DNA of 64,000 nt, taken from NCBI GenBank assembly GCA_964017185.1, contig OZ024876.1, forward strand, positions 11,905,726 through 11,969,725. The letters are read 5' to 3'. Source of the stretch: Rugalucina vietnamica (lineage: Eukaryota; Mollusca; Bivalvia; Lucinida; Lucinidae). The notes beneath the pieces were generated by a model. The model worked only from the letters and a program-made list of their open reading frames with translations, was not told the DNA's origin and did no database searches. The position numbers and the translations under genes are program-made. Below are positions 1,376 through 55,432 of the stretch, in pieces; the stretch's first letter is position 1; each line of letters begins with the position of its first letter.

Positions 1376-1790
1376 TTCTCCAGAGCTACTGTGAGGTTAG
1401 GGCCCAGTAAAACCGGTTAAAGTCCCCCCAGTAATTTTGTTTTACTGATCGTTCCAAGGCGGTGCTTCTGTTGTGGTTCTATTTGTTTTTGTTTTGGGGT
1501 CGAATTTTCTGCTTTTTGAACCTTATGTGGATTTACATATTTTTATTTAAGTTTGGGTAACTGAGTGGCCACCTGTTGAGAAATAGCTGCTTCTTCGGAT
1601 AACGATGTGTTTTCTGGTGCCTGGTTGTCGGTTTAGTTTTTTCCCACCTCGGTTTCTTTCTGATTGCACCTTTTCCTGATCGTACACAAATTTGAGAGGC
1701 CTTATACACTCCCCATGAAAGAACATTTTCATCTAAGGCAAATCTGAAAAAAAAAATATTAGTGGGCACTTCATAAGCAAAGTTTTCAAG
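1376..1790 (+). mobile_element. Naiad/Penelope-like element, 3' end fragment
   Basis: This matches, in the opposite orientation, the 3' untranslated end of the Naiad at 29914-33803. Shared blocks include GTGAGGTT, CAGTAAAACCGGTT, ACTGATCGTTCCAAGGCG, CTGAGTGGCCACCTGTTG and GATTGCACCTTTTCCTGATC. Only the non-coding 3' end is present. It sits in the spacer of the 1-3250 inverted repeat. Confidence 0.75.
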
Positions 1791-3640: not shown

Positions 3641-6226
3641 GTATTTCGTAACCAGAGGACCATTGGTCCTGAGAACGCTCACCTGAAGCCTGATCTTGGA
3701 GTATTAAGTCATAATGAAATGACCTTGACCTTGAATACTCACACACCTTTATTGACTTCATAAGTTGTCTGCATCTGCAAAGTTTCAGGTCTCAGGCTGC
3801 AATAGTTTCCAAACCCAGTGATTTCTGAGAAAACCATAATTTTAATTTTGATATTTAAATGACCTTGGGCCAAGGTCAAGACATGACCTTGGCCTTCATT
3901 AATTACTTACCTTCAATGACTCCATTAGTTGTCTGCATCCAGCAACTTTCAGGTCTCAGGCTGCAACAGTTTGTTTTCGCCTTTTCCCATGTGAAAGCCT
4001 ATGTTTCCAAAATTGACCTTGCCGTAAAATAGGTCATGGTCATCATAGGGTCATCATTTCAACAAACAATGATGGGCTGGAGTCCCAAATGCTACATACC
4101 AAGTTTCATGAAAATTGGCCTGCCAGTTCTTGAGAAGATTTTTGAAAGGTTTTTACCATATAAGGGCGTGGCGGCCATCTTGGTCATGTGACCTGGATTT
4201 CGCGATCAAACTTTCGTCTCCCCTACACATGGATGCTCCACATAAAATTTCACTTTGATTTGCCAAGCAGTTTCAGAGAAGATCTTTGAAAAGTGTGTAT
4301 GGACAACAGACTGGCCAAGGTCAAGAGATGACCTTGACCTATATTAATCACATACCTTCATCTACTCCATTAGTTGTTTGCATCTACCACTTTTCAGGCC
4401 TCAGGCTGCAATAGTTTTAAAAAAATCCATAGTTTTCACTTCTTCCTATGTAAAAGCCTATGTTTCCAAATTTGACCTTGCCGTAAAATAGGTCAAGGTC
4501 ATCCAAGGGTCATCATTTTATCAAACTATGATGGGCTGAGGTCTCCAATGCTACATACAAAGTTTTGTGGAAATCGGCCCACAGGTTCTGGAGAAGAAGA
4601 TTTTTTACAGGTTTTAACCATATATGGGCGTGGCGGCCATCTTGGTCGCGATCAAACTTTCGTCTCCCCTACCCATGGATGCTCCACATAAAATTTCACT
4701 TTGATTGGCCGCGCAGTTTCAGAGAAGAAGATCTTTGAAAACTGTGTATAGACAACAGACTGGCCAAGGTCAAGAGATGACCTTGACCTACTTTAATCAC
4801 ATACCTTCATCTACTCCATTAGTTGTTTGCATCTACCACTTTTCAGGCCTCAGGCTGCAATAGTTTTCCAAAAATCCATTGTTTTCACTCTTTCCTATGT
4901 AAAAGCCTATGTTTCCAAATTTGACCTTGCCGTAAAATAGGTCAAGGTCATCCAAGGGTCATCATTTTATCAAACTATGATGGGCTGAGGTCCTTGATGC
5001 TACATACCAAGTTTCGTGGAAATCGGCCCACCGGTTCTGGAGAAGAAGATTTTTGAGTGGTTTTTACCATATATGGGCGTGGCGGCCATCTTGGTCATGT
5101 GACCTGGATTTCGCGATCAAACTTTCGTCTCCCCTACACATGGATGCTCCACATAAAATTTCACTTTGATTGGCCGCGCAGTTTCAGAGAAGAAGATCTT
5201 TGTAAAGTGTGTATGGACAACAGACTGGCCAAGGTCAAGAGATGACCTTGACCCATATTAATCACATACCTTCATCTACTCCATTAGTTGTTTGCATCTA
5301 CCACTTTTCAGGCCTCAGGCTGCAATAGTTTTCAAAAAATCCATTGTTTTCACTTTTTCCTATGTAAAAGCCTATGTTTCCAAATTTGACCTTGCCGTAA
5401 AATAGGTCAAGGTCATCCAAGGGTCATCATTTTATCAAACTATGATGGGCTGAGGTCCTTGATGCTACATACCAAGTTTCGTGGAAATCGGCCCACCGGT
5501 TCTGGAGAAGAAGATTTTTGAGTGGTTTTTACCATATATGGGCTTGGCGGCCATCTTGGTCATGTGACCTGGATTTCGCGATCAAACTTTCGTCTCCCCT
5601 ACCCATGGATGCTCCACATAAAATTTCACTTTGATTGGCCGCACAGTTTCAGAGAAGATCTTTGTAAAGTGTGTATGGACAACAGACTGGCCAAGGTCAA
5701 GAGATGACCTTGACCTATATTAATCACATACCTTCATCTACTCCATTAGTTGTTTGCAACTACCACTTTTCAGGCCTCAGGCTGCAATAGTTTTCCAAAA
5801 ATTCATTGTTTTCACTTTTTCCCATGTAAAAGCCTATGTTTCCAAATTTGACCTTGCCGTAAAATAGGTCAAGGTCATCCAAGGGTCATCATTTTATCAA
5901 ACTATGATGGGCTGACATCCCCGATGCTACATACCAAGTTTCGTGGAAATCGGCCCACCGGTTCTGGAGAAGAAGATTTTTGAGTGGTTTTTACCATATA
6001 TGGGCGTGGCGGCCATCTTGGTCATGTGACCTGGATTTCGCGATCAAACTTGAAATGCCACTACCCAAGGAGGCTCCACATAAAATTTCAACTAGATTGG
6101 CCAAGCGGTTTCAGAGAAGAAGATCTTTGAAATTGTGGACGACGACGGACGACGGACGACGGACGGACGCCGGATCATGGCTATCCTATTAGCTCACCTT
6201 GTGAGCCTTCGGCTCAGGTGAGCTAA
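3640..6226 (+). mobile_element. Hairpin-ended non-autonomous element with about five 460-bp tandem units (Pearl/Helitron-like)
   Basis: The left end reads AACCAGAGGACCATTGGTCC then GAGAACGCTCACCTGA. The right end is a GAC(GGAC)n tract followed by the hairpin AGCTCACCTTGTGAGCC/GGCTCAGGTGAGCT at 6190-6222. Between them the core TTGACCTTGCCGTAAAATAG recurs near 4012, 4471, 4920, 5385 and 5847, giving units of 449-465 bp. Each unit also has a GGCGTGGCGGCCATCTTGGT block. No transposase is present. Both ends recur, inverted and with fewer internal units, at 12234-13256. Architecture with a variable core repeat array recalls bivalve Pearl elements; the class is inferred. Confidence 0.75.
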
Positions 6227-23393: not shown

Positions 23394-26300
23394 AAACGCA
23401 TACGATTTCTGTTATTTTTGGCAATTGAGCCGCCTCGTGGGAAAACCAACGATGTGGTTTCCGAACAGGTCCGACACAAACCATCCTGTATAAGCACAGA
23501 AAATAGCTAGAAGCTTGAAATTTCCGATTTAAGTAAAAGAGGAATTGTACTATCCGAATAGCGAAAACAAAGGCGCTGATCAGCTTCGCGGTTACCGCGA
23601 AGCTGATCTGCGTCTTTGTTTTCGCCTATGCAGATTGTTGGTTTTCCCATGAGGCGGCTCAATTATTTCTATGGTTTGTAAGGTTTATCTCCAGTATGTC
23701 ATTGATGCATTGTGGGTAGTTTGACAAGGGCTACAGATAGCAAGACAGTCGCTGCAAAGATCTTTTTGGTTTCCGAAGACGTGTACGGAAAATGTCACGC
23801 TTTTGATCAGGGATCGATTTTGATTTTCCTTTATTTAAATTTCGCCATTCACTCATTTATTCGGTTTTACGCAAGTTTGCTGATGCTAAAACGAAGATCG
23901 GTTGCTTTTCTTTTATAAGTTGTCATTCAATATAATGTAACATAATATGGAAAAGCATGCCATATGCCAAGGGGATTATGGAAATATGTTCCCTTTTGGA
24001 ATACGCCCTGCAGCAGATGATTTAAGCATTAAACAATAAATGTATATTCGAATACCGATCATCGAGTACAAGTAGGCAATGATCAGGAAAAGGCGCAATC
24101 AGAAAAACATTCCCACTCAAAAAACCGAGGTGAGAAAAAACTAAATTAACAATCGGGTACTTATACCATGAAAACATATCCTAAGCCGAATGATCAGCTC
24201 ATGTTACCGAACCTTCACTTAAATTATGATAAAATACATAAGGCGCCAACAACACAAAAAATTAAACACCAACACATAAAACAATAAGAACCACAACAGA
24301 AGTATCGCCTTGGAACTATCAGTAATATAAAATTACTGGCGGGCTTAAACCGGTTTTACAGGTACCTAACCTCACCCTCAGCTTCTGCAGTGGTTCGCAA
24401 CATTTAGTTAGATGTTCGGTCCTCGTGGTGAATCTCTTACTAGTCAATGAATCATCATGGACAAACAAATAAACTCCGTGATGAATCCTGAAAACGACGA
24501 CTGACACATTGAGTAAGCTGCCCGACGATGGAGATCCCTGGACGCCCAATAACTTACTAACTCCGGAGCAAAAGAAAAACACCTGTTGAACCCCAGTGGG
24601 CCAAGCAACAGGCAAGAAGCTCCGACCCCAACCGACTTAAATGAATAGCTTTATGTCGGGGCCATTATAGAGTCTAACGCCCGACCCACCGGCGTGCAAC
24701 CATGATTGGGTTAAAAACTAAGCATGCAGACTGTCGCATAACATTTAAGTTATATCCTATACGTTTGTAACGCGTAATGATTTTTCTGAATTGAAAAGAA
24801 AAAAAATCATTCTTTCCTATAAGTTTCTTAAGTTTGTAAACCAAGATAATTTTGGGAAAGTTCCTTAAATACCTTTATGTGCCGTCTCATAAAGCTGTTT
24901 CACTTTGAAACTGGTACACTATTCCGATGCTAAAGGACCAAGCAAGTAATTCTGCACAAAGGAAAGGATAGGCATGTACCCTAGATCAACATTTGAGCCA
25001 CCACATGGGAAAACAAACAATCTGCATAGACGTAAACAAAGACGCAGATCAGCTTCGCGGTAACCGCGAAGCTGATCAGCGCCTATGTTTTCGCTACACG
25101 GATAGTACAATTCCTCTACTTCCTAAATCCAAAATTTCCAGTCTCTAGCATTCTTCTGTGCTTGTACAGCCCGGTTTGTGTCGGACCTGTTCGGAAACCA
25201 CATTGTTGGTTTTCCCACGAGGCGGCTCATTTGATCACTTTGAAAGTCTGTGATTTGCAAGCCTTGAAATGTATTGAAATGTACAAAAATTGCCTACCCT
25301 TTGGATTGGTACTCTTGAAAGTGCATTCCTGAATCATACTTACATCGATCGCCAGGCGCATGCCTCATTCTTTAAGCTGACATAATTTTATAGCCCCTTG
25401 ATATGTCGTAATAATGTTCTTTTTATACAGCATCAACACGATTAAAAATGAAGAAACCGAAACGTACATACATGTATTTACTGGTCGCCGCCATTTTGAT
25501 CTCCAGTAAATCAGCGTAAAAACCGGTAAAACTGCCATAAACTCCGGCAAATCGACGTATAGGTTGACCAGTGTGTTCATAGCGGTTCGTACTTTAAGGT
25601 TTCTATTCCACGAGATGATATGGCGATTTATTTTACATTCCAGATAATTTCACAGCAGCCCAAGCCCTCGAGACGATAGCTTTGATTCTGTTTATCGTAC
25701 TTCCGTTTCTCGTGGGGATCTTCGTCTGTGTTTCATCCGCCAGGGTGCGGTGCGTGGCACTGTGCGCAATCGTCGTCTGCTTTCTAGCAAGTAAGTAAAC
25801 AATCTTAACACATTTATTCTGGATGGTTCTACTTTCCTTTTATGTGGGATCAAATTGCATTTCATTTTTCAATGCACACTAAGCAAACAGAATAGCCCTA
25901 GATGATACGCCGCATTTTGCGGCGTCCCATCTGATGCTTATATAATGTTTAACTATATCCCATAAAAAGCACACCTGGGTTATAAGAGCAATGAGAAGTT
26001 AGTTCGATTTTCGTTTTTCGTTTTTCGATATTCAAAGAAAAGAAGTTAGTTCGATATTCGTTTTTCGTTTTTCGATATTCAAAAAATAAGTTAGTTCGAT
26101 TTTCGTTTTTCGTTTTTCGATATTCAAAAAAAGAAGTTAGTTTGATATTCCTTTTTCGTTTTTCGATATTCAAAAAAATAAGTTAGTTTGATATTCGTTT
26201 TTCGTTTTTCGATATTCAAAAAAAAAGTTAGTTTGATATTCGTTTTTCGTTTTTTGATATTCAAAAAATAAGTTAGTTCGATTTTCGTTTTTCGATATTC

Positions 26301-29300
26301 GCCCCCTTGGCGTTTTTGTGCTCAAATTTGTACTTTAGCGAACGTGCTCATTGTGAATATCATGTTCGCAGTGGAGGTTCTCACTTTCACCCATCTACGA
26401 CAGAAAAACTTGGAAAAATTTTAATATCGAAATATAGAATTTTATTTCGATTTTCGTTTTTCGATATTCGCCCCCTTGGCGTAAGAGTGTTGTAGTATGA
26501 CTTGAAGTATTTGTAACATTAAATCCAATACAAAAAGCGAATATCGAAGATGGCTGGCCCACATACTAGGCGGAAAGAAAACCAGAAGAAACCCATACTC
26601 ACCCTGGTCCGTCATTACGTACAGGAAATTAAAGCAACGTATAGATTACTAAAGCGCAACGTATAGTTTACTAAAAAATGGCGGATTTTGGTGGACACGA
26701 ATCGGTGAGTAAGATTTGTTTATTGATTCTGATGTTCCTTTTTTGTTTATCTTAATCAAACACACGGACCAGCAAAACTATTGTGTTATTTGCCTCGATC
26801 GGTACATTCTGCAGGAAATCACCCATTTAAGTATAATGTTCGACACCCTTAGACAGCTGATTGCCAAATCGTGTGTTTTGAACTTCTCCGAGAAGAAAAC
26901 CTTATATTGTGGTCAAAGTTCGATGGTAAATGGGTTGATTTTTGATGTCGAACATAGATACTGACCTAATAAGACGATCTGGCCAAAAAAATTTTTTCAA
27001 ATGTCCTTTGATAGCGAAATTATTAATGATTTTTCATTACAACGCATTCGACACCTAAAACGGTACAACGAAAAAACAACTAAAACGTTCTAATTTGGGT
27101 AAAATAAACCTTATTACGATACTATGGACTCAGTTATAGATCCTCTTAATGTCTGTCCACAATCTAAAAACAATCAAAAACGTATTAACGTAAAAATTCT
27201 TGAACGAGTTGATAACTTTGTATTTACACAGAAAGGATAGGACAGGAACAACGTCGCAACAGGAACTTCTCTTTGGGCGCTGGTTAGTTAGTTTGTGTCA
27301 CTTGGCTTAACGTCTCAGTCTGTAATTCATCAGCATCACTGACACATTTCTGGCCTGAAATACAGCAAAAAAAATCAATTTAGGTTTATTATACGTTAGA
27401 TAAAGTAGAAAATATAGCCCAGGAATAGACACAATTAAATTTAAAATCCAAACCCAGACACCAAGCGGGAAAGATATAGACTTAACAAGAACAAACATAA
27501 TAGATCAACAGAAGGTTCAGGATGCCTGAACATGAAAATGTGACAACACACATGAAGAGCAAGATGACTAGCTCTTTCCAAGGAAGGTAGCCATCCGGCT
27601 TCCTTCAACTAAATACAAATTAAGCGTATACAACAGAAGCTGACATGCCAAACATACAACATAAAGAATCACAGTAGAATCGCCTTGGAATGGTCAGCAA
27701 AAGAAATTTTACTGGAGGGCTTAAACCGGTTTTACTGGCGCCAAACCTCGCCCTTAGTCTACTGTGATTCAATAACAAACAATGTTCGGTTCTCATAGAA
27801 GCGTCCTAGCTCGTCAATGAAGCATCACAAAAAACAAATGTAAACACTGTGATGAAACAAAAACGAGGACTCAACAGTAACGCCGACACTGAAAAACCGC
27901 CGGGAGCAAAAGAAAACAACTATTTCAACCTTGGTGGACCCGACCAGAGACATATGTTTATCCCGTAACCTTAACTTGTTGTCAGGTCCCTCCCATCTGT
28001 AAGACAGCTTTAGTTCTGTACCGTCATTGAGTCTGAGGGCCCATGCACCCACCGGCGTGCACTTAAAGAGGAAAGTAAAGTTTTTTACCGTATCTGGATT
28101 AAAAACTAAGCATGCAGTATATTGCATTAAATTCAACCGATTCTTCGATATCGATTGGCTATCTTTTTTTAAATTTAACAGCAAAATGATCAGATTTTGT
28201 CTTTTCATTATTCTCATCCAAAATTTTCTTAAATTTAAGGAAGAGGCTAATGACAAACGTTTGTCAATAGCGAAAACACGTTAAATCTGCTATTTACAAA
28301 CGTTTGTCAATAGCGATTTTTCGATAAAATCGCTAAATGACAAACGTTTGTCAATAGTCAAAATTACGAAAAATCACTATTGACAAACGGCTATATTATT
28401 TTTTAATTAGCCAAGTTAAAAAATGATAGCAGCAATGTACAATGTATCATCATCGTCTCCAACATCTTGGGCGGGGAAAACTGCATTATTAATTGGCACA
28501 TATGACTGGCAAATATTTACGTTTGTAAATAGGAAAAAATATGTAAACTCGCTATTGACAAACGTTTGGATATTAATTAATGTTGAATTAGTCAAGTTTG
28601 CAAACAGCTGATAGTAACAAACGTACATGTACCAAGTATCATCATAAAATTAATCCTTATGCAGGGAAAACGTCCGAACGTTTTTTTTATATGAAATACA
28701 GAAATAGGCTCACGCAAATAGCAAATGTGCATGCATAATATCTCAATTTATCAATCGAAGCTTATTTTGAGCCCAGAAAAATCGTATATTAATCGAGGTT
28801 CCGGTTTCATATGATCTTAGCTGTTTGGAAAACTCAATACTGACAGACTAACCGTGTTTTACAGTAGACTAACAAGCGTCTTACCTGATTCAGTTTAACC
28901 GCCCTTTTGGATTGCAATATTTATCTTAAGACGAACTGGTCATCAGCTGGAGCGAACATGGGACTTCTTCAGTTTTTTTTGTGTTGAGGCTTTACGTCCC
29001 TGTCAAAAATTTTTCAGTCATGTCGGGACGGAGCCAACGCTTCCTGGGTTTAACCAGTACTGTTGGGAGTTAATGTGTCTTGCTCAAGGACACAACACGA
29101 TGACGCCTGTGGGGATCGAACCCAGGACCTCTCGATTCGGAGTCCGACGCTCTACCACTACGCCACCGCGCTCCCATAGACTTCTTCAGTGTAAGATCCT
29201 TTCCCATAATGTGCTTATGTGCTTAGTGGGGCTCAAACCCATGAGTTGGTTGAGTAGAGTTTGTTGGTTGAGGGATTGTTTATTGCCCAAGTCAGCAAGT

Positions 29301-32300
29301 AATTTCGGGACTGAGGCTGCGTTTCTCAAAGTTTTTTTTAGCTCACCTGGGCCTTATAGTATAGTAGTCGAGCCGGCGTCCGTCCGTCCGTGCGTCCGTC
29401 AGTGCGTCCGTCCGTCCACATTTTCAAACTTGAATATCTCTAAGACAACAAGGCCAATCGTGATCAAATTTTATCTAAAGCATCATCGGGGAGGGGGAAA
29501 TGTTTTATTAGGTTTTGGGCCAGGTCCGATCAGAACTCTGGTTTCCATGGCAACAGATAGCTCCCATAGACTTACAATGGGAAAAACATAAAAAAAAATC
29601 TTCTTCTATGAAACCATAAGGCCCAGAGCTTTCATATTTTGTATGTAGCAATGTCTAGTGGTCCTCTTCATAAATCCTGCCAACCGTGCCCCTGGGGTCC
29701 ATACTGGCCCCGCCCCGGGGGCGTCATGGGAAAAATATAAAAATAAAATCTTCTTCTCTGAAACCACAAGGCCCAAAGCTTTCTTTTTTTGTGTGTAGCA
29801 GTGTATAGTGGTCCTCTATATAAATCCTGCCAATCATGCCCCTGGGGTCAAAAATGGCCCCGCCTCGGGGGTCATTAGCTCCCATAGACTTACAATGGGA
29901 AAAACATAAAAAAAGGTACAAGTAGGCAAAGATCAGGAAAAGGCGCAATCAGAAAAAGATTCCCACTCCAAAAACCGTGGTGGGAAAAAACCAAACCAAC
30001 AATCAGGTACTTATACCATGAAACATATCGTAAGCCGAATGAGCAGCTATTTTCCCAATAGGTGGCCACTCAGTTACCTTAACTTAACTAAAAATATGAA
30101 AACATACATAAGGCGCCAACAGCACAAAAAATTTTTTCAAACACCAAGACATAAAACGAAAAGAACCACCACAGAAGTATCGACTTGGAACGATCAGTAA
30201 CACAAAGTTACTGGCGGGCTTAAACCGGTTTTACATGGCCATAACCTCACCCTCAGCTTCTGCAGTGGTTCATAACATTTAGTTAGTTATTCGGTCCTCG
30301 TGGTGAATCTCTAACTAGTCAATGAATCATCAAGAACAAACAAATAAATCATGATAAACATCCTGATGAATCAAAAACCAGGACTCACAGACTGAGTAAG
30401 CTGCCCGACGATGGAGATCCCTGGGCGCCGAATAACCTACTAACTCCGGAGCAAAAGAAAAACACCAGTTGGACCCCGGTGGGCCAAGCAACAGACAAGA
30501 AGCTCCGGCCCCAACCAACTAAAATGAATAGCTTTATGTCGGGGCCATCATAGAGTCTGACGCCCGACCCACCGGCGTGCAATTAAAGAAGGCAGCATAG
30601 TTATCAACCATGATTGGGTTAAAAACTAAGCATGCAGACTGTCGCATAACATTCAAGTTATAACCTATACGTTTGTAACGTGTTATGATTTTTCTGAACT
30701 GAAAAGAAAAATCATTAATTCCTTTAAGTTTCTTAAATTTGTAAACCAAGTCACCATAAAATTCAGGTTCCGAAAGGCCCTCACTTAAAAGCGTCTTTAA
30801 CCCAACATTATATTTGGAAATCAATTCATAGTGTCTACGATAAAATTTAGAAAATGTTTTTCGAAGTTTATGATACCGATAGCCTTGTTGGAGAAGTTTT
30901 GCCGTTAAACATTTATTTCGAGCGTTGAAGTCTGTAACATGATTGCAGACTCTAGCAAACCTAATAAGTTGCGAAATGTATACACCATAAGAAGCACGAC
31001 GAGGAACGTCACCATCCAAAAAAGGAAAATTTACTATATCAAAATCAAAGTCATCGCGCTTGTCATAAATTTTAGAAGAAACAAATCCATTTGCAACAGA
31101 AAGATGTAGATCTAAAAAGGGGGCTTCAGTATCTGAGATATTGGCTTTGTTCAACTGAAGTTCAGGTGGATAAATTTGATTGACCATACCTTCAAAATAA
31201 GGGTTGTCAATGTTCAAAAGGTCATCGAGGTACCTAGATGTGGAATTAAAAGCCTCGATAACATCAGCTTGATTATCATGGTTAAGAGAATCCATGAAAT
31301 CTCTTTCGTAGCAGTATAAAAATAAATCAGCTACGAGAGGTGCGCAATTTGTACCCATCGGAATTCCAACAATTTGTCTGTATAACTTGGTCCCAAATCT
31401 AATATAAATATTATCAAGGAGATAGGATAAGGCGTCGCATACATTCTGACATGACCAAAGTGTATACCGACTTTGGTCAGAGGAAGTGAAAAAAGCCTTT
31501 CTGTCATTACATGCCAAATAAAGTGAACCATAGTTTTTTAATGCCCTTTTGAAGGTCCACTCTATCAAATCAAGAAGTTTTTCTTTAATTAGATTATGTG
31601 GTAATGTTGTATACAGAGTAGAAAAATCATATGTAGACAAGCTTGTCGCACGGAACCCTCTACACTTCAATTTACTGAGCACCTCACCAGAATTTTTAAT
31701 TGACCAAAACCAATTTTTATTTGAAGTTTCATAGACTGTCTCACAGTATCTTATAACATGAGATTTGATAGCAGTAAGACAGGAAGTTAATAATTTAGAA
31801 AGTTCAGTGGTAGTACAAGAGCTAGAATTTGCAATAAATCTAGCTTTGTATGGTCTTTTGTGAAGCTTAGGTAACCAATACATCGTAGGAAGTTTGTCTT
31901 GGCCTTCATTGACACAAACAGAAAACTTAACAGGTAAATCGTTTAAGTGGGCATTAACTACAGACACCTCATCAGTATCTGTCTCCAGATAAGCCCTGGT
32001 ACCATCAAGCTCCTGTTTTAAGGTGTTAACGTAGTGAAGCCTACAAACGACAACAACATTGTTTGCGGCTTTATCTGCCGGAACCAAGACATACTTTCTA
32101 TGAAATTCTTGGATACCCTGCTTCAAATGCCTAAATGACGATTTGGGTTTAGGAGGTAAAAGATTAGTATTTTGTGAATAAAACTTAATACGTTTATCCA
32201 CAATAGTGAAGATACTTCTTTTCCATTCTTTAAGAGCATTATCCTCAACACCCTCTCGTTTACACCATCGATTACCGAAATCATTTAATGCAGATGAAAT

Positions 32301-35300
32301 TTCCTCTCTACATTTGTCGAAATTAATGTAGGAAGGGAATCTATATTTCGGACCTTTAGAAACAATTTTGCGAATTCTAGAATCCGAAATTATTTTTAAA
32401 TTTCCAGTAACAATATGTCCAGCGGGTTCATAAACATATTTTGAATCTTTACAATCTCAAGACTTAGGAGTATTAGCATGGATATCAAGATCAGAAACAA
32501 GTTTATTGAAATTAAAAATTGTATTTCTGATTGGTTTGTTATATTTGTAACAAATAATAGGAGGTTCTGAATTTTGGAAGTAGGTAGGTATAGACTGTAT
32601 CACTGATTTATCCTGGAATATGCTTGGTAAATCAATAAAGTCAATTCCTTTATTGATGAAAGGAATTTTAATAAAACTTCTAATGTGATTAGATTCGGAA
32701 TCGATAAATGGACGAAGAGCATGCTGAGTATAACATCTTGTTAACAGTGCAGCGTCATACATTTGATGATTTCTATCGTAAAATCTATTAGCCTCTGTGT
32801 CCAAGGAACGTAATGCAGCAATAGGTAGAGAACTAAGATACGACAGCATTGGATGTCGACCGTGAATCCTTAGTTTAACAGCTAAATCATTAAGAGAAAT
32901 GTTCAATTTCAATGCAGCACACCGTTTACGTTTGTCATTACCCTTTTTCCGTATACCATGAGATCTAGATTTACGTTTACGAGAGTCCGAAAGTGTAAGT
33001 ACATCAAAATCGGGCATTTTGGAAATATTGCCTTCATGGTAAATGTTGTCGTTAAATCCCAGTGGAAAGGGTGTTTGCAGTAATTTTATCCATTTAAGTT
33101 CAGTTTCAAATCGTTTAATGTTTTTGAATCTAACTGAAGAATTTTCATCATATGAGATTTTCTCCACTGGTTGAACTTTAACATCATTGGGAGAATGACC
33201 AGTGCGCTTAAAATGCTGGTACAGAAAGGTATCATTATTTTTGGGCTTTCTGATTCTACGATAGTGCTCACCAAATCGTTTTTGCAAAGTTCGACAAGTT
33301 TGTCCAACATATTGCATCCTACAATTGTTTGTATTTCAAGTAAGAACATATACAAGATCCTTTGATTTTCAGTCTAAATCGGAATCATTAACCACTGAAA
33401 ATGTCCTACCATTCACAGATGAAGTGATAGTAGTCTTAGAGCATAAATGATTGCAACAGTTGCACTTCTTGGCATTGCACTTAGAAATACTAGGGTACAT
33501 TCCAGGTCTCTTGAACGGATTAATATATTTACGTAAAATTGGTGATTTGAGTGGAGATAACCTAATCTGAAGATTATTACGAAACATATTAGAATTAGAA
33601 GCTCCGTGTAGATTAACAGTAGATGCCGAAAATAAATTAAGAGGTGTCACCCTTACAGTAGGTAATAAATTTTGAAAATTGTTAGTTGAATGAGGAATCC
33701 GTACAGTAGACGCGGCATGCAACCTAAGGGGAGTTAATGTAATTCCTAATCTTTTTGTGATAGTCATAGTTGGGAGTATTGTGTTGATACTGCCAAAAGG
33801 AGCGAAACCACAAGACCCAGAGCTTTCATATTTTGTTTGTAGCAATGTATAGATGTCCTCTTTATAAATCCTGCCAACCGTGTCCTTGGGGTCTATACGG
33901 GCCCCGCCCCGGGGGCGTCATGGGAAAAACTTTAAAAAATCTTCTTCTCCGAAACCACAAGACCCAAAGCTTTCATATTTTGTGTGTAGCAATGTATAGT
34001 GGTCCTCTTTATCAATCCTGCCAACCGTGCCCCTGGGGTCCATACGGGCCCGCCCTGGGGGGGGGGGTCATGGGTAAAACATAAAAAAATCTTCTTCTCC
34101 AAAACCACAAGGCCCAGAGCTTTCATATTTTGTTTTTAGCAATATATAGTGTTCCTCTTTATAAATCCTGCCAACCGTGCCCCTGGGGTCCATACGGGCC
34201 CCGCCCCGGGGGCGTCATGGGAAAAACTTTAAAAAAATCCTCTTCTAAAGAGCTATTTTGTAACATGTTTCTGAAATTCTGCTTAAAGTACCCGGAAGCT
34301 TACGAAAACTTGCCCATGCAAAATACAGGGGTTTTGTAAAGTTGTAAAAATGAGAATTTTCAGTAGAAAGTGTTTGATATTTTTCTTATTTTTGCTCAAA
34401 ACATTGATTGTGAGTACACGTTAGAACCGCCTTGACGAGTACCCACAATCTATGTTTTGGAGCAAAAATAAGAAAAATAGATATACCACTGCACACCCCA
34501 GTTTTACTAATATAAAACTGGGGTATAATGGGGTAGTTATTTCACGGACATGTTTTCCTGATGTCAGGGACTGGAGGCTGACTGAGACTTGGAACACGTA
34601 TCAAAATTTTGGTGTCGGACAGGTACACATACTCTTGAAGCCTAATCCATAGATGAAGGTAAAACATCAAATGTCATGATCAAGAATTTAACCCACTATT
34701 TTCGCCTTTCTTATTTAAGCGTTTGGAGTTTAATTTTTGTTTCATAATATGCATCATCAAAGACCCTTTTTTCGCTATCAAGTATCTACTTTTGCATTTA
34801 ACTTTTCCCCTCTTTTCGCTTAGCTATCAAGAATATATTTTCGCTACCTGGTCCTATTTTAAGCGATACTCGAGTAATCGATTGTTAAATCAGACACGCG
34901 TCTATTGTCTATTGCACCTGTAATGTGCAGTTGCACCAGTATTGTGCAGTTAGCCTGAGATAAAGATTCCGACAGAGTAATGGCTAGAACGTCCGCTTCG
35001 GGAGCGGGAGGTCGTGGGTTCGATCCCGGGCCGGGTCATACCAAAGACTTAAGACAAGCACTGGCTTCTCTTCTCCCAAAACAAAATATAGCATCACTAA
35101 CATCGCATGTCTAATATGAAAAGTCCGAATAATAACAAAAACGTCCGAAAATAATCAATGTCTGTATTCACTAGAGGACCGTATGGAAGACTGGCCGTTG
35201 TGCTAAATACGTTATCCTCTATAAATATAGAGATTATTATTATTACTATTGGCCTGCCCAGGTAAAGTGGTTCAAGTAAAACCATCCATACATATAAGCA

Positions 35301-41967: not shown

Positions 41968-44931
41968 GTAGGGTCCGTATGAACTACTGTCCTTACACCA
42001 TCTTTAAGAAACCACCCTTTTCATTTCAAAATTTTCAGAAACCCTCAGAAAATAATGACCTTGACAACCTTTAAAATTTGTATTCTGCCAATTTCTGGTT
42101 AAAAATCTTGAGAAATGAAAATAGGTTCAATGCAAAAGATTTTTCTTGAAGTGTTTCAGAAAAGTGAAATTTTGAAAGAAGAAGTTTCTGAAAGATTTAG
42201 GACTAATTTCTTGAGGACATGTTTCAGAAAAAGAATGATTTGAAAAAAAAAGTTTCTGAAATAGGCTATTTTGTAAGGACAGTAGAGTTTATTGGGCATA
42301 CTTAAGAGATCAACTGGCTAACCCGCACAGGCACTGATCAGGCACTATGTTTAAAACACTTAAAGTCTTCGCAACCTTGGTTTGGAAAGGTCTAACGGAG
42401 CACCGATGGAAATATTCCGTCTACATCGTAGGAGTAGGCTTATTACAGATAAAATTCTGCGAAAATAGCCTACATATATATATCCGAACAAAGTTGCAAT
42501 ATTGCACTTAAATTAAATAGGTTAAGCGAGCAGTAAATGTAGATCTAAGTGCGTTTTCAATGCATTTTTTTAATTGATACATTTTAATCTGACAGTAGGA
42601 TCTATACTATTTTCCCTTCAGAAGAATCCTGGAGTTGCCACGAGTGACACTGGGGGTTGGTGCCGCAGATCTAGCACCGAGAAAGGCGGGCAACACCAAA
42701 CTGATGTGGCGCTGGTGGACACGCTCGCAACATTGTTTCAAGGTACTAGATGAGCATGTGCGTGAGAAAACCAACAATTTGGGTTCCGAAGTTCCAGGTC
42801 TGACACAAACCGGGCTGTACAGTCACAGAAGCAGGCTAGAAGTTTGAAACTTCGGATTTAAGAAGAAGAGGGATTGTACTATCCGTGTAGCGAAAGCAAA
42901 GGCGCTGATCAGCTTCGCGGTTACCGCGAAGCTGATCTGCGCCTTTGTTTTTCGTCCAAGCATGTTGTTGGTTTTCTTATACAGTGGCTCAGATAACTTA
43001 AGTAACTTACAAAGTGCGCAAAAAAAATATACCGCTGAACAAGACAATACAGGAAAGTCGTTAAAATATCCTTGGCTTATACTATATCTAGTATTCCACG
43101 CATAATCATACTATAATTTGAGCAACGTTTGTCTGTTTGTTTGTTTGTTTGTTCCCCTACTCCTCCCAGGTCCTTGGGCCGATCTTCACCAAACTTGGAG
43201 GGAAGGTGGAGGGCGGCCCCGGATATTAGCTTGAGGGGTTCATTTTTTGAAAGGTCAAGGTCATCGAGGTCAAAGGTCAAATTTATGTTTTTTTTCTGTT
43301 TGTTCCTCTACTTCTCCCATGTCCTTGGGCCGATCTTCACCAAACTTGGTGGGAAGGTTGAGGGCGGCCCCAGATATTAGCTCGAGGGGTTCATTTTTAA
43401 AGGTCAAGGTCATCGAGGTCAAAGGTCAAATTTCTGTATCTCGGCAGCCCTTGGTCCGATTTGCATGAAACTTGGTGAGTGTATACAGGTTGATCCCTGA
43501 TTAAGATTTATGGGTCCGATTGGGTCAAAGGTCATCGCGGTCAAAGGTCAAATTTGTTTTTTTTTTCTGTTTGTTCCTCCCAGGTCCTTGGGCCGATCTT
43601 CACCAAACTTGGAGGGAATGTTGAGGGCGGGCCCGGATATTAGCTCGAGGGGTTCATTTTTTGAAAGGTCAAGGTCATCGAGGTCAAAGGTCAAATTTCT
43701 GTATCTCGGCAGTCCTTGGTCCGATTTGCGTGAAACTTGGTGAGTGTATACAGGTTGATCCCTGATTAAGATTTATGGGTCCAATTGGGTCAAAGGTCAT
43801 CGAGGTCAAAGGTCAAATTTATGTTTTGTTTCTGTTTGCTCCTCCCAGGTCCTTAGGCTGATCTTCACCAAAGTTGGAGGAAAGGTGGAGGGCGGCCCCG
43901 GATATTAGCTTGAGGGGTTCATTTTTTGAAAGGTCAAGGTCATCGGGGTCAAAGGTCAAATATATGTTTTTTTCTGTTTGTTCCCCTACTTCTCCCAGGT
44001 CCCTGGGCCGATCTTCACCAAACTTGGTGGGAAGGTTGAGGGCGGCCCCGGATATTAGCTCGAGGGGTTCATTTTTAAAGGTCAAGGTCATCGAGGTCAA
44101 AGGTCAAATTTCTGTTTCTCGGCAGCCCTTGGTCCGATTTGCATGAAACTTGGTGAGTGTATACAGGTTGATCCCTGATTAAGATTTATGGGTCCGATTG
44201 GGTCAAAGGTCATCGAAGTCAAAGGTCAAATTTATGTTGTTTTTTTCTGTTTGTTCCTCCCAGGTCCTTGGGCCGATCTTCACCAAACTTGGAGGGAAGG
44301 TTGAGGGCGGCCCCAGATATTAGCTCGAGGGGTTCATTTTTTGAAAGGTCAAGGTCATCGAGGTCAAAGGTCAAATTTCTGTATCTCGGCAGTCCTTGGT
44401 CCGATTTGCGTGAAACTTGGTGAGTGTATACAGGTTGATCCCTGATTAAGATTTATGGGTCCAATTGGGTCAAAGGTCATCGAGGTCAAAGGTCAAATTT
44501 ATGTTTTGTTTCTGTTTGCTCCTCCCAGGTCCTTAGGCTGATCTTCACCAAAGTTGGAGGGAAGGTGGAGGGCGGCCCCGGATATTAGCTTGAGGGGTTC
44601 ATTTTTGAAAGGTCAAGGTCATCGTGGTCAAAGGTCAAATTTATGTTTGTTTGTTTTTTCTGTTTGTTCCACTACTTCTCCCAGGTCCTTGGACCGATCT
44701 TCACCAAACTTGGTGGGAAGGTGGAGGGCGGCCCTGGATATTAGCTCGAGGGGTTCATTTTTTAAAGGTCAAGGTCATCGAGGTCAAAGGTCAAATTTCT
44801 GTATCTTGGCAGTCCTTCGTCCGATTTGGATGAAACTTGGTGAGTGTATACAGGTTGATCCCTGATGTGTCTTATTTGTCTTCATCGCCACAATCATCTT
44901 ACTGCTACGTCGAGACGGGTAAAATTTACTA

Positions 44932-50020: not shown

Positions 50021-53000
50021 CTAACTTTTAATCCACTCAGAGCATCTTTTGCTAAAAATATTTAAGGATGAAGATTGTTTTATTTCTAGCGGGATACTAT
50101 TCCATATTACTACTCCAGAGAAAGACAAGCTACCCTTAAATAAATTACATTTCGCCTGAGGAAGTACATAGTTTTTATTTGCGACCGATCTTAAATTTGA
50201 AAGTGTGCTATCCAATCTGCCTTCTCTCATTTGAAATAATTCAATCAAGTAACCGGGAGCTAGATTGTTATAAACTTTGTACATAATTTTTGCCTTGCTA
50301 AGGAAAACACTCTGATCAAATGACAAAATATCCAGTTGTTCTAAAGATTCATTTAAACTTTTATAATCTGTTGATAAAATTAATTTACAGGCCCTCCTCT
50401 GCAATTTATTGATCTTATTGACATTAAAATTAGATGAATTGCTCCATATTATACTACAGTAATCAAACTGGGGCTTAATATATGAATTATAATACAGAAG
50501 TTTGTGATCTAGTGATAAATAAGATTTGATTTTGCTTAAAAGCCATAAATATGATGAAACTTTCTTTGATATATGTTGATAATGATCATTCCAGCATAAG
50601 TTTTCATCAACATAAACACCTAGGATTTTATCACTTGTGGTCATTCTAATGTCCATATCACTATATGTAAGAGTTAATGTGCTTTCATGTAAGTTATTTC
50701 TTTTCTGTCTACTTGTGATCAACATTACTTTCGTCTTCAATGTATTTAATACCATACCGTTTTTTCTACACCAATCATGAAGCAAGTTTAATGACTTTTG
50801 TAAATTTCTTTGAAGAGTTTTCAAATCAGAATGCTGCTCATATAAGGTGGTGTCATCTGCATATAGATCAACAAACGATACGGTATCATGCAATAACAAG
50901 GGTAAGTCATTTATGAAAAGTAGAAATAACAAAGGACCTAAAATAGATCCTTGGGGAACTCCACAATTTACTACTGATGAATCAGACAACTCATTATTCA
51001 AAACAACACGCTGAGTTCTGTTAATCAGATACGAATTAAACCAAGATAAACAAGAGTCACTACATTTATAAGACTGCAATTTTTTCAATAGAATTTGATG
51101 GTCAACAAGATCAAACGCCTTGCGAAAATCAACCATTACACAGCCTACTAGTTTTCCACTGTTTAAGGCTTTTAGCCATGAATCCACCATAAGAATCATA
51201 GCAGATTCCGTCGAATGTTTTGCACGAAACCCACTTTGAGATTTGTGTAACAAACTGAAATTGTTTAAGAACAACGAGAAATTAATATCGACCCATTTCT
51301 CAATTAGTTTCGATACAGTCGGAAGAATTGAAATGGGTCTGTAATTATTGATATCGTCTTTATCTCCTGATTTAAATAGCGGCTTAACTTTTGCCTCTTT
51401 CCATACACTAGGAAATGTACCAGAAGTAATGCTTTTGTTTATTATGTAAACAAGACTTGGGGCTATGATGTTTGCAGACAATTTTAGAATTTTAGGACCT
51501 ATGTTATCCAAACCAGTTGACTTGCTTATATTTAGATTTGATAAAAATGTATTTACAAATGCCGCATTAGTTAACGGAATTTTAAATTCAACATCATGTG
51601 GAACTTTAGATTCAACAAAAGTGTTAAGGTATTCAAATTCAGAGTTTATAATTGGCTCTTGTAATTTAGAAGCTACGTTCACAAAATAATTATTAAAAAG
51701 TTTCGCTAAATCCGATTCAGCCGTTATTATGTTATCTTCGCATTTTATAGCAAAATTGTTTTCATTGTCGTTTCCTTTGCCTTTTAAACCAAATTCTTTA
51801 AACAATTTCCAAATAGTTCGTGGGTCTGACTTTCCTTCTTCAATTTTTGTTTGATATGTTTTCTTCTTTGCTATGTCAATTAAGTTCGTTACTTTATTCC
51901 GCATTTGTTTATACTCGGAGATGTTACCATTTAGTTTATATTTATTTCGTTGTTTCATGCAATCAAGTATTTCTGAGGATAACCATTCAGGTTGGTATTT
52001 TTTCTTAACCCTATGACTTTTAATTGGTGCATGTTTATCAAGAATTTCTAAAAATAATGTATTCCAAACATTAACTATATCATCAACATTATCAAACTGC
52101 TCTAATATTTCCCAGGGAACACTACTTAAGTCAGATAGAAAATTGGCCTCTTCAAAGTTTTTAAAAGACCGATATGTAATGACTTGATGTGTATTTTTAC
52201 TAACAGACGCGTGTGATTTGCGGTTACAAAATACGGCAAAGTGATCACTAATGCACATTTTTTCAACAGAAACAGATTGGATAGTTTCTTCATTATTGGT
52301 ATATATGTGATCAATCAGCGTTTGTGATTCTTGCGTTACCCTTGTAGGTTCACTTATTAATTGTGTTAAGCCTAAAGATGAAGTGAAGTTTCCCCAATCT
52401 CTTTCAATTTCACAATTCAATAAGTTTCTATTAAAGTCACCTAGGATTATAAACTCTTTATTTTGATCGGAAACAATGTCGATAAAATCCTCAAATCTAT
52501 CATTAAATTCTACTTTTGTGTCAGGCGGTCTATACATATTACCGACTAAAAAAGACTTTCCGTTATTTGGACATATTTCTAACCACAGGCATGCTATATC
52601 ATTAGTTTCTAAATCCTCTCTACGTTTGGCAAGGATGCCTTCCCGCACATAAACAATTATACCTCCACCACCATTATCGTTGTTGTCTTTTCTGAATGGT
52701 GACTGAAAACCGTTTACTTTGAAAATACTGTTAATTTTATGACTTTTCAATTTTGTTTCACTCATTCCAAAAATATGCAATTTACTGTTTTCAGGTGCAG
52801 TCAGTATAGCACTTATTTCAGAAAATTTACTCATTTTGTCACCACATATTCCTTGAACATTAAGATGGCCAATATTTATACCTTTACTATTTAGGTCAAT
52901 GGAAAATGTATCTAGATTGTTATTATTTGCAAAAGATGATATTTCATTAAAGTGAACATTATTATCTGAAATACTATTTAAATGTTCAGGCAATTGTTGA

Positions 53001-53209
53001 CTTTCAGAATCACTATTTCTTTCTATACAGTCATTTAAGATACCGCTTTCAAAGCTAACTGAATGTTTATCGAAATTTTGTAGATGTTCAGCATCTACAT
53101 TAAGTATTGATCTATTACTGGACTTTGTAAATGTATTAGTATTAGACACATATATTTGACTATTACAATTACAATGAAACAAATTACAATTCACACATAC
53201 TCTCTGCAA
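50021..53209 (-). CDS. LINE ORF2: APE endonuclease + reverse transcriptase
   Basis: The frame encodes about 1,060 residues. Residues 5-15 form a Cys/His cluster (CVNCNLFHCNC). An APE-type endonuclease follows: HLNVQG (115-120), SETKLK with the catalytic Glu at 151, GDFNRNL and SDHFAVF. The reverse transcriptase has YRPISILP, SGFRAKHSTESA, DFRKAFDLVDH, CGVPQGSILGPLLF and the catalytic YADD at 783-786. The thumb and C-terminal region are complete, with no RNase H. No ATG lies between the ORF1 stop and codon 126, which is already inside the endonuclease; the listed start is a TTG. ORF2 therefore needs readthrough, reinitiation or a non-AUG start. Enzymatically this copies its RNA at a nicked target site. 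Confidence 0.88.
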   Translation of the reverse strand: MQRVCVNCNLFHCNCNSQIYVSNTNTFTKSSNRSILNVDAEHLQNFDKHSVSFESGILNDCIERNSDSESQQLPEHLNSISDNNVHFNEISSFANNNNLDTFSIDLNSKGINIGHLNVQGICGDKMSKFSEISAILTAPENSKLHIFGMSETKLKSHKINSIFKVNGFQSPFRKDNNDNGGGGIIVYVREGILAKRREDLETNDIACLWLEICPNNGKSFLVGNMYRPPDTKVEFNDRFEDFIDIVSDQNKEFIILGDFNRNLLNCEIERDWGNFTSSLGLTQLISEPTRVTQESQTLIDHIYTNNEETIQSVSVEKMCISDHFAVFCNRKSHASVSKNTHQVITYRSFKNFEEANFLSDLSSVPWEILEQFDNVDDIVNVWNTLFLEILDKHAPIKSHRVKKKYQPEWLSSEILDCMKQRNKYKLNGNISEYKQMRNKVTNLIDIAKKKTYQTKIEEGKSDPRTIWKLFKEFGLKGKGNDNENNFAIKCEDNIITAESDLAKLFNNYFVNVASKLQEPIINSEFEYLNTFVESKVPHDVEFKIPLTNAAFVNTFLSNLNISKSTGLDNIGPKILKLSANIIAPSLVYIINKSITSGTFPSVWKEAKVKPLFKSGDKDDINNYRPISILPTVSKLIEKWVDINFSLFLNNFSLLHKSQSGFRAKHSTESAMILMVDSWLKALNSGKLVGCVMVDFRKAFDLVDHQILLKKLQSYKCSDSCLSWFNSYLINRTQRVVLNNELSDSSVVNCGVPQGSILGPLLFLLFINDLPLLLHDTVSFVDLYADDTTLYEQHSDLKTLQRNLQKSLNLLHDWCRKNGMVLNTLKTKVMLITSRQKRNNLHESTLTLTYSDMDIRMTTSDKILGVYVDENLCWNDHYQHISKKVSSYLWLLSKIKSYLSLDHKLLYYNSYIKPQFDYCSIIWSNSSNFNVNKINKLQRRACKLILSTDYKSLNESLEQLDILSFDQSVFLSKAKIMYKVYNNLAPGYLIELFQMREGRLDSTLSNLRSVANKNYVLPQAKCNLFKGSLSFSGVVIWNSIPLEIKQSSSLNIFSKRCSEWIKS

Positions 53210-53269: not shown

Positions 53270-55432
53270 CTATTGCGAGTACCAGCAATCAGCGACTTCA
53301 TGTCCCGGCATATTGCATCCAAAACATAGTCTTCTGCCTCCCCTTTGTCCATTTGATTGTCCATAGTATGTATTTTGTCCATGCCCCCTGTTTGGTCCGT
53401 TAAACTTGCTATTTCCCGTGTACTGTCTGTTTGATTGTTCATATCGTGCTCCCGTGTGTGTCCCGTTTGATCGACTGTTTCCCGAGTATCGTCTGTACGA
53501 TTTCCCATTTCCCGTTTGTGGTCGCCCGTTTTCCTCCTTATTGTGCCGATACGACTGTCGTCCATTTCCCGGTCTGTTGTCTTGAGTGAGTTGCTGCCTC
53601 GAAGATGACATTACGCAGAACTGAAAATTGTCAACGATATTTACATTTCTGTTCATGGCGTCTAGCATTCGACGTGTACCCGGATGTGCCAGATGTATTC
53701 CATCACTGCCATAATAGCGACTAGCGGGCATTCCGTGCTTATCAAACAGCAAATCATATGTCTCGACTATGCATTTGACATTATGCATTTTCCAGTGATC
53801 GGCTACTCGTCTGATAGAGGTATTGATATTGGATACATCTACATCTCCACGTGGCAAAACTTGACAAATATGTACACAGCATTCTGGATTTGCAACAGTA
53901 ATGAAGCTCAGTAGCTCATCGTAATTATCTTCAAATTGATTGATATCTGTAATGCTTGAAGCGTCGTTTCCACCCACGCATATCACGATGTTATCAAACG
54001 TTCCCAAGTTGTACACCGATAATTCAGTCCAAATGTCTTTGACTTTGGCACCGCCTTTGGCGCAGACTGTAGTCCCGTTCTTTAGCCCTTTAGTGTTTAC
54101 TGCCTTTAGCAAAGAGTCGCCAACAAGCAACGTTCTATTACGCGGTCTCGGCGGTGGAAGCTGCTGATCATTTATTGGACTTGCCCTGTTGGTGATACGT
54201 ACTGTCACTGGCTGCGGCGGAGTAACACGGCCACGTGGAGTCTGTTCACTAGTACAGGAAATAACAGAGGCGTCAACGGTTTCTTTCAGACCGGGAGTAA
54301 ATACTTGTTTCAGACGTGTCTGAGAAGAGCCATCACAAAAACTTCCGTCAGAGAGATTCCCGTATCCTTCATCTATGGCGCTAGGTTGTGACACGTTACG
54401 GCACTCGCTTGGTAAAACATGGCGTTGCTGTGCTTTCACCGAATCGGCGTATGACACTTGTTTATTTGTACTTTCAATCATTTTCACTAAGGTGGATTTT
54501 AGGTCATTTAACTTGAGTTCCATCTGTAGAAGGACATCTGTCTTCAGGGACTTTATACTGGAATCAAGCTGAGCTATTTTATTCATTATACTGCTAATTT
54601 TCAAGCTGGTTATTTCGCTACTCTCTGTTGTCATACCATCTTGGCGTTGTACTATAGGGGTGCTTGTGTATATGGGTAAAGTATTGACATTTTCACATGT
54701 TGCCGTCCCGCTACCCATTTTCTCCGCAGTAAACTCTACCTGGACTTGTGGCGTTGGTAAGAGACATTTCTTCAGCTGAGTGTCTGATTTTTGCGTTGGC
54801 ACCGGCTCAGGCTGTTGAATGAAATCCTCATGACTCTCAGACTGTGATGTATGTTCAGACGACCGACTCCCCGACCGACATTCCGACGGCGCATGCTCGT
54901 GAATTTGGCTGTCTCCCGTGCATGATGCATCTGATTGTAACTGGCTGTCTAACAAATCATCCGAAAGCGGCTGTCCGGTACTTGATTCTTCGTATTGGCT
55001 ATCCACCCCCTGCATGAACCGTTTAAACAAGGACTGAATGACTTTTGGAAACCGTTCATTTCTCCAAAGTTTATAACCCATGCCGCTCAACTCGACTGTT
55101 TTAAAATGGCTATCCAGCTTCAACTCGCATTTCACTCCTTTAATATGCGTCGAGCACTTGGACACGAACGTGGTTTCGTCCTTTTCAACATTTTGCTGAA
55201 AATCTGAATGCGTTTTGCTTTGAAACATATCAAAGAGAACTCTTGACAGGAATGAAATGATTATTTTAGATTCATGTAATTCTGTCCTGTATAATGTACC
55301 TTCTAGTAGGTCACTAGATATCACAGTATTATCAGCATTCATTGTCTCAGTAACCGATTCACCGGAACTTGAATCAAGATGCGCAAAATTGCTACAGCTA
55401 GAATTGTCAGATTCAATGATTATGGTGTCCAT
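53270..55432 (-). CDS. LINE ORF1: SGNH esterase + CCHC zinc knuckle protein
   Basis: 720 residues from an ATG. The N-terminal third is acidic and low-complexity. A probable coiled coil (ISSIMNKIAQLDSSIKSLKT region) follows. Residues about 433-595 are an SGNH/GDSL hydrolase: GDS at 438-440, GGND near 487 and DGIH at 577-580 supply the Ser, Gly/Asn and Asp-His blocks. A Gly/Asn/Arg-rich tract follows. The C-terminus holds a C-x2-C-x4-H-x4-C zinc knuckle at 703-716. Esterase-bearing ORF1 proteins are known in the CR1/L2 group, where they are thought to act as RNA-binding and chaperone proteins. It ends in TAG at 53270-53272, in the same frame as ORF2. Confidence 0.87.
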   Translation of the reverse strand: MDTIIIESDNSSCSNFAHLDSSSGESVTETMNADNTVISSDLLEGTLYRTELHESKIIISFLSRVLFDMFQSKTHSDFQQNVEKDETTFVSKCSTHIKGVKCELKLDSHFKTVELSGMGYKLWRNERFPKVIQSLFKRFMQGVDSQYEESSTGQPLSDDLLDSQLQSDASCTGDSQIHEHAPSECRSGSRSSEHTSQSESHEDFIQQPEPVPTQKSDTQLKKCLLPTPQVQVEFTAEKMGSGTATCENVNTLPIYTSTPIVQRQDGMTTESSEITSLKISSIMNKIAQLDSSIKSLKTDVLLQMELKLNDLKSTLVKMIESTNKQVSYADSVKAQQRHVLPSECRNVSQPSAIDEGYGNLSDGSFCDGSSQTRLKQVFTPGLKETVDASVISCTSEQTPRGRVTPPQPVTVRITNRASPINDQQLPPPRPRNRTLLVGDSLLKAVNTKGLKNGTTVCAKGGAKVKDIWTELSVYNLGTFDNIVICVGGNDASSITDINQFEDNYDELLSFITVANPECCVHICQVLPRGDVDVSNINTSIRRVADHWKMHNVKCIVETYDLLFDKHGMPASRYYGSDGIHLAHPGTRRMLDAMNRNVNIVDNFQFCVMSSSRQQLTQDNRPGNGRQSYRHNKEENGRPQTGNGKSYRRYSGNSRSNGTHTGARYEQSNRQYTGNSKFNGPNRGHGQNTYYGQSNGQRGGRRLCFGCNMPGHEVADCWYSQ

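Follow-up and report, generated by a model that had tools for sequence, protein, structure and literature searches.

A Naiad-type retrotransposon of the clam Rugalucina vietnamica with three in-frame TGA codons and a SECIS element spanning its stop codon: a probable selenoprotein gene

The element and its reading frame

The window analysed here is a 64,000-nucleotide stretch of the genome of the lucinid clam Rugalucina vietnamica (assembly GCA_964017185.1, contig OZ024876.1, positions 11,905,726 to 11,969,725 of the forward strand). It contains, on the minus strand, a 3,889-bp copy (29915..33803) of a Naiad-type Penelope-like retrotransposon, delimited by the alignment of 39 copies fetched from the same genome, of which 38 align from the first base of the window copy and 35 to its last. 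Upstream of this, 30 of the 39 fetched copies carry a whole leader of about 340 nt, 7 carry part of it and 2 lack it. The window copy lacks it too and is therefore 5'-truncated just upstream of an intact open reading frame (ORF).

The ORF (30534..33767, minus strand) runs from an ATG at 33767 to a TAA at 30536-30534 and comprises 1,078 codons counting the terminal TAA. A script count found no TAA or TAG before this stop and three TGA triplets, at codons 133 (33369..33371), 144 (33336..33338) and 437 (32457..32459), exactly as the initial annotation of this DNA had described. The strand, which that annotation had left unstated, is the minus one; the plus strand of the same interval is closed by many stops, and a plus-strand reading was ruled out on that ground. 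In 500 base shuffles of the ORF sequence the mean number of TAA plus TAG was 54.9 (minimum 35) and that of TGA 19.0, which puts the open frame well beyond chance.

TGA codons at conserved cysteine positions

Each TGA stands where homologous proteins have cysteine. In an alignment with six distant relatives (P0005-P0010, 28-33% identical), codons 133, 144 and 437 fall in columns where Cys is found in 4/4, 4/4 and 6/6 of the proteins having a letter there. All-Cys columns are only 10 of the 885 columns with at least three letters, and three random codons would therefore all land on such columns with p ~1e-6. Codon 133 lies directly before the core of the predicted GIY-YIG endonuclease, codon 144 takes the first of the Cys positions that lie between the GIY and the YIG strand, and codon 437 is the first position of the CxC motif in the linker, which reads U437-D-C439 here and is Cys at both columns in all six distant relatives. 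All three are predicted to encode selenocysteine (Sec, U). In-frame TGA where homologues have Cys is a feature of eukaryotic selenoprotein genes, and the alignment indicates that the element has it. Another invariant Cys column falls at codon 575 (32043..32045), which is TGT in the window copy.

A wider comparison drew on best hits among protein records (10; the best 120 of 728; the best 120 of 1,576, from 7,994 candidates sharing most words) and aligned 246 relatives after P0011 had been dropped; some of them are 98-99% identical and may stem from this same genome. No relatives were found in the viral_contigs, genome_contigs, plasmids and phages collections. At codon 133, which 80 records cover, 36 showed W, 5 C (four from distant relatives), 4 a gap, 1 R and 1 L, and the remaining 33 ended precisely at that codon. 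The 47 records at codon 144 comprised 36 W, 8 C (4 distant), 2 gaps and 1 end, and the 20 at codon 437 comprised 8 ends, 7 C (6 distant) and 5 W. TGA is the sole codon that genetic code table 11 treats as a stop and table 4 as W; a position that is a stop in some gene calls, W in others and Cys in distant kin is therefore most simply a TGA translated under these two tables. The fourth invariant Cys, at codon 575, shows 46 C, 8 W and 1 R in 55 records, and is probably TGA in some sister families.

A SECIS element across the stop codon

A selenocysteine insertion sequence (SECIS), unmentioned in the initial annotation, was found at the 3' end of the element (30492..30559, minus strand; Rfam RF00031, SECIS_1, 37.4 bits against a gathering cut-off of 35). 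It is the only Rfam match at gathering level in the window. Its conserved parts are the AUGA quartet at 30551-30548, the apical AAA at 30535-30533 and the GA at 30505-30504. A SECIS at the 3' end is a further feature of eukaryotic selenoprotein genes, and the Rfam match predicts that it is present here. The SECIS does not lie wholly in the 3' untranslated region (UTR): it begins inside the ORF, and the TAA stop falls within it and therefore supplies two of the three conserved adenosines.

The SECIS sits in an extended hairpin (30464..30593, minus strand) with a 15-bp basal stem (30575-30561 / 30490-30476), in which 38 of the 42 base pairs have one partner in coding sequence and the other in the 3' UTR. 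Folding of 30455-30600 gave a minimum free energy of -63.6 kcal/mol (z -5.0), and none of 200 shuffles folded as well. Over this 146-nt stretch 24 of the 39 genomic copies match the window copy exactly. The 39 differ from the window copy by 0.20% over the final 26 codons, by 0.46% over the 3' arm of the SECIS (30455-30533), by 0.59% over the ORF before these codons and by 2.0% over the remaining 3' UTR; the copies are related, and no significance is claimed for these figures.

The place of the stop is also shared by relatives. In 80 of 120 C-terminal records the alignment comes within eight residues of the end, and 68 of them stop exactly after the homologous residue, the usual endings being ...SDSMMAPT (39) and ...SDSMMVPT (16). 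Among the 61 of these records below 90% identity whose alignment extends into the tail, identity to the window protein is 90% over the last 16 residues, compared with 68% over the preceding 47 and 73-83% over the reverse transcriptase (RT) blocks, the tail value being somewhat inflated by the choice of alignments that reach the end. Three records, P0180, P0189 and P0198, stop six residues early, after ...VGRISD, ...VGRALD and ...VGRASD, respectively; they represent clusters of 1,743, 2 and 5 members, only the representatives having been compared. Their earlier ends suggest that the protein can do without its last residues. What the conservation of the C-terminal tail preserves would then be the RNA and not the peptide.

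Copies in the same genome

The genome (1.09 Gb in 47 contigs) holds at least 40 near-full-length copies, including the one in the window, that are 99-100% identical (with 40 of 3,922 candidates scored), plus one short piece. Codons were tabulated for the 39 copies that are gapless across the whole ORF, L033, which lacks the first 14 bases, being dropped. The initial annotation had held that TGT or TGC at these codons in other full-length copies, with TGA private to the window copy, would speak against recoding, and that conserved TGA under purifying selection would favour it. Codons 133, 144 and 437 are all TGA in 39/39 copies (34 of them distinct) and TGT or TGC in none; TGT at codon 575 and TAA at the ORF end are likewise found in 39/39. 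Three of the copies (L012, L023 and L044) have one extra stop each. The distinct codon changes among the 39 are 111 synonymous and 96 non-synonymous, where the possible single changes number 2,073 and 7,620 (1,103 and 2,128 if transitions alone are counted), and this excess of synonymous changes indicates purifying selection. Retention of the TGAs together with coding constraint past them is a third feature of eukaryotic selenoprotein genes, seen here among close copies.

A protein search of the same genome with a query across codon 437, in which 64 of 17,176 candidates were scored and which overlaps the near-full-length copy set, gave 60 rows with a single internal stop, a TGA; the remaining four had two TGA (2 rows), TGA and TAG (1) and TAA alone (1, copy L048). 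Divergent pieces of the element in the flanks of the fetched copies were found only outside codons 133, 144 and 437. Head-to-tail copies with a spacing of 4,226-4,230 bp occur on contigs C11, C15, C3 and C7, and the leader of about 340 nt separates them at the three loci checked.

Predicted domains and assignment to Naiad

Naiad elements combine an N-terminal GIY-YIG endonuclease, a CxC linker and an RT resembling that of telomerase (TERT). Pfam and PDB sequence searches with the window protein (P0001) alone gave no significant match. In a ten-row alignment with relatives (A1), GIY-YIG (PF01541) was detected in three rows and RVT_1 in five, neither in P0001 itself. An AlphaFold model covering the N-terminal 260 residues (mean predicted local distance difference test score, pLDDT, 61.2) has the catalytic domain of I-TevI (1ln0) as its top PDB fold match (probability 1.00, TMt 0.74, E 8.3e-3) and places the GIY-YIG domain at approximately codons 90-230 (33078..33500, minus strand). 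For the whole protein (mean pLDDT 69.3, predicted template modelling score 0.51), telomerase entries take ranks 1-16, that is, 16 of the 17 PDB fold matches with E<=0.001, and the TERT-like RT domain spans approximately 30936..32108 (minus strand). The Naiad label given by the initial annotation is thus supported by the predicted folds at both ends of the protein.

Further features of Naiads are a CCHH motif in the endonuclease (absent from Chlamys), tandem copies forming pseudo-long terminal repeats, and the lack of a canonical hammerhead ribozyme. In the window protein, C149, H168 and H185 are invariant in the 13 rows of alignment A6, and we read U144, C149, H168 and H185 as a putative CCHH-like endonuclease site. 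The head-to-tail copies on the four contigs agree with the tandem arrangement. A hammerhead was absent among the Rfam gathering-level matches in the window, where the copy has no 340-nt leader, the leader itself not having been scanned.

Selenoprotein interpretation and its alternatives

Taken with the predicted folds, the Cys columns, the SECIS, the TGA codons in 39/39 copies and the synonymous excess support what the initial annotation had proposed, a probable selenoprotein-encoding transposon. We put at roughly 93% the probability that this is a young copy, with intact ORF, of a high-copy Naiad-type Penelope-like retrotransposon whose single protein is a selenoprotein. The Sec machinery of the host would decode UGA 133, 144 and 437 as selenocysteine, directed by the one SECIS that straddles the stop. 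Two Sec would thereby be placed at the GIY-YIG endonuclease, that at 144 within its CCHH-like site, and the third would fall in the UxC linker. Metal may be bound by U144, C149, H168 and H185, which would give Sec a role at sites of metal-binding type. For transposition, the full-length protein would nick DNA through its GIY-YIG domain and the TERT-like RT would copy the element RNA.

Several observations weigh against this interpretation or parts of it. The 39 copies are the best-scoring ones and, at about 99% identity, close kin, so that their shared TGAs are not many independent events. One copy, L048 (97% identical), has TGG at codon 437, with TAA at 540; it is a decayed copy and not a Cys-encoding one. 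Some relatives of 52-79% identity do have Cys at the positions in question (one record at 133, four at 144 and one at 437). The equation of W with TGA, though the simplest reading, was drawn from protein records. The fold match to I-TevI is confident by its probability and not by its E-value. Finally, the 36-nt 5' UTR is as little diverged among the copies (0.22%) as the SECIS arms.

Among other explanations, the one that survives best, itself improbable, is a programmed readthrough of UGA or a regulated truncation without Sec, in which another residue would be inserted and short and long products made. In its favour, no stop codon is leakier than UGA, and the protein sequences break off precisely at codon 133 in 33 records and at codon 437 in 8, the pieces between the TGAs having been called as separate ORFs. 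Generic readthrough would, however, not be expected to act at three successive UGAs that all occupy invariant Cys sites, nor to come with a SECIS. It is more improbable still that the element is dead and its three TGAs are nonsense mutations peculiar to this copy. The identical three TGAs are present in all 39 indel-free copies, every one of them at an invariant Cys site, in an ORF with synonymous excess and a SECIS. Dead copies do exist, as shown by the fragments in the window, the extra stops in 3/39 copies and L048, but the TGAs are not private to the window copy and decay was rejected. That TGA means Trp in the element or in the host lineage is barely credible and was also rejected: W at 133, 144 and 437 in 36, 36 and 5 records most simply reflects table 4 of the gene caller, whereas the ORF holds eight TGG codons, the six distant relatives show Cys and not W at the TGA columns, and a 1,062-codon ORF of a long interspersed nuclear element (LINE) in the window has no TGA.

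Within the selenoprotein interpretation, the overlap of SECIS and stop is the part that deserves specialist attention, and we make no claim that it is unpublished. It raises the question of how a stop-spanning SECIS works. The last coding stretch and the UAA form the 5' arm of the SECIS, which carries the AUGA quartet and two of the three adenosines at the apex, and a ribosome reaching the UAA would open this arm. We tentatively suggest, as an idea more doubtful than probable, that the recoding signal is fused with the end of translation: ribosomes that pass all the UGAs would unfold the SECIS, making Sec insertion self-limiting and leaving a C-terminal peptide that is conserved for its RNA. 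Few full-length proteins would then be made per RNA, and the RNA would be spared for reverse transcription.

Comparison with known elements

Selenoprotein-encoding Naiads, that is, Penelope-like elements with an N-terminal endonuclease, were reportedly described in clams and spiders by Craig et al. in 2021, and the element in the window is therefore a good new example and not a new kind. Those Naiads reportedly share with it the N-terminal GIY-YIG domain, the CxC-type linker and the C-terminal RT, as well as the presence of several Sec, a high copy number and a tandem arrangement. The present element would be distinguished from them by its three predicted Sec, a fourth site being Cys here and probably Sec in sister families, and by the stop-straddling SECIS, which may already be described. 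The Cys-encoding proteins P0005-P0010 share the domain order where covered, the invariant Cys columns and the RT motifs, and differ in having Cys at every covered site of the four. Telomerase reverse transcriptase, the top hit when the model's fold was searched against the PDB, differs in function and has no endonuclease.

SECIS elements within coding regions were reportedly the subject of work by Mix, Lobanov and Gladyshev in 2007. Such elements are functional and less efficient than those in 3' UTRs (PMC2397514). The SECIS described here resembles them in overlapping translated sequence; it differs in that the stop codon itself lies inside the SECIS, and does so in many transposon copies.

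With at least 40 near-full-length copies of 99-100% identity in one genome, the use of Sec by a mobile element becomes directly testable. A selfish element with Sec would thereby depend on host selenium, and the question is raised of why invariant Cys of the endonuclease and linker became Sec in such an element.

Surroundings of the element and other features

The element interrupts a 150-bp tandem repeat, whose left part lies at 29577..29871 and right part at 33805..34246. Three other remnants of the element were found in the window. A 5'-truncated older copy, 83.6% identical (24066..24845, minus strand), retains the TAA stop and has AUAA as its SECIS quartet, its SECIS scoring 18.1 bits, under the cut-off. 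An older divergent copy in two pieces (27648..28136, minus strand) gave no SECIS match in 27880-28110; both copies are decayed. A 3'-UTR fragment, 76.6% identical, lies in the opposite orientation (1391..1681, plus strand).

Contigs filed under Candidatus Thiodiazotropha, a group of symbionts of lucinid clams, contain relatives that are 78-83% identical. Two of the protein records, P0170 and P0175, are Naiad pieces in metagenome-assembled genomes of that name (contigs of 4,012 and 3,222 bases), and these contigs resemble clam DNA left in bacterial bins, which would make them host contamination.

Close to the element, 34374-34483 forms an almost perfect inverted repeat with matches to several microRNA families, none of which reaches the cut-off; it is probably a small foldback element. 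An inverted pair of tRNA-like 43-nt segments (29112-29154 / 34985-35027), 79% complementary, flanks the locus; these are probably pieces of short interspersed nuclear elements. In the window, ARAGORN, run with the bacterial code, detected no tRNA. A second retroelement, which we take to be CR1-like, occupies 50021-53209 and 53270-55432 (both minus strand), with an ORF of 1,062 codons encoding RT and exo-endonuclease and, upstream of it, an ORF that contains a GDSL/SGNH domain. Long tandem arrays lie at 3971-6137 (units of about 465 bases) and 43253-44648 (units of about 265 bases).

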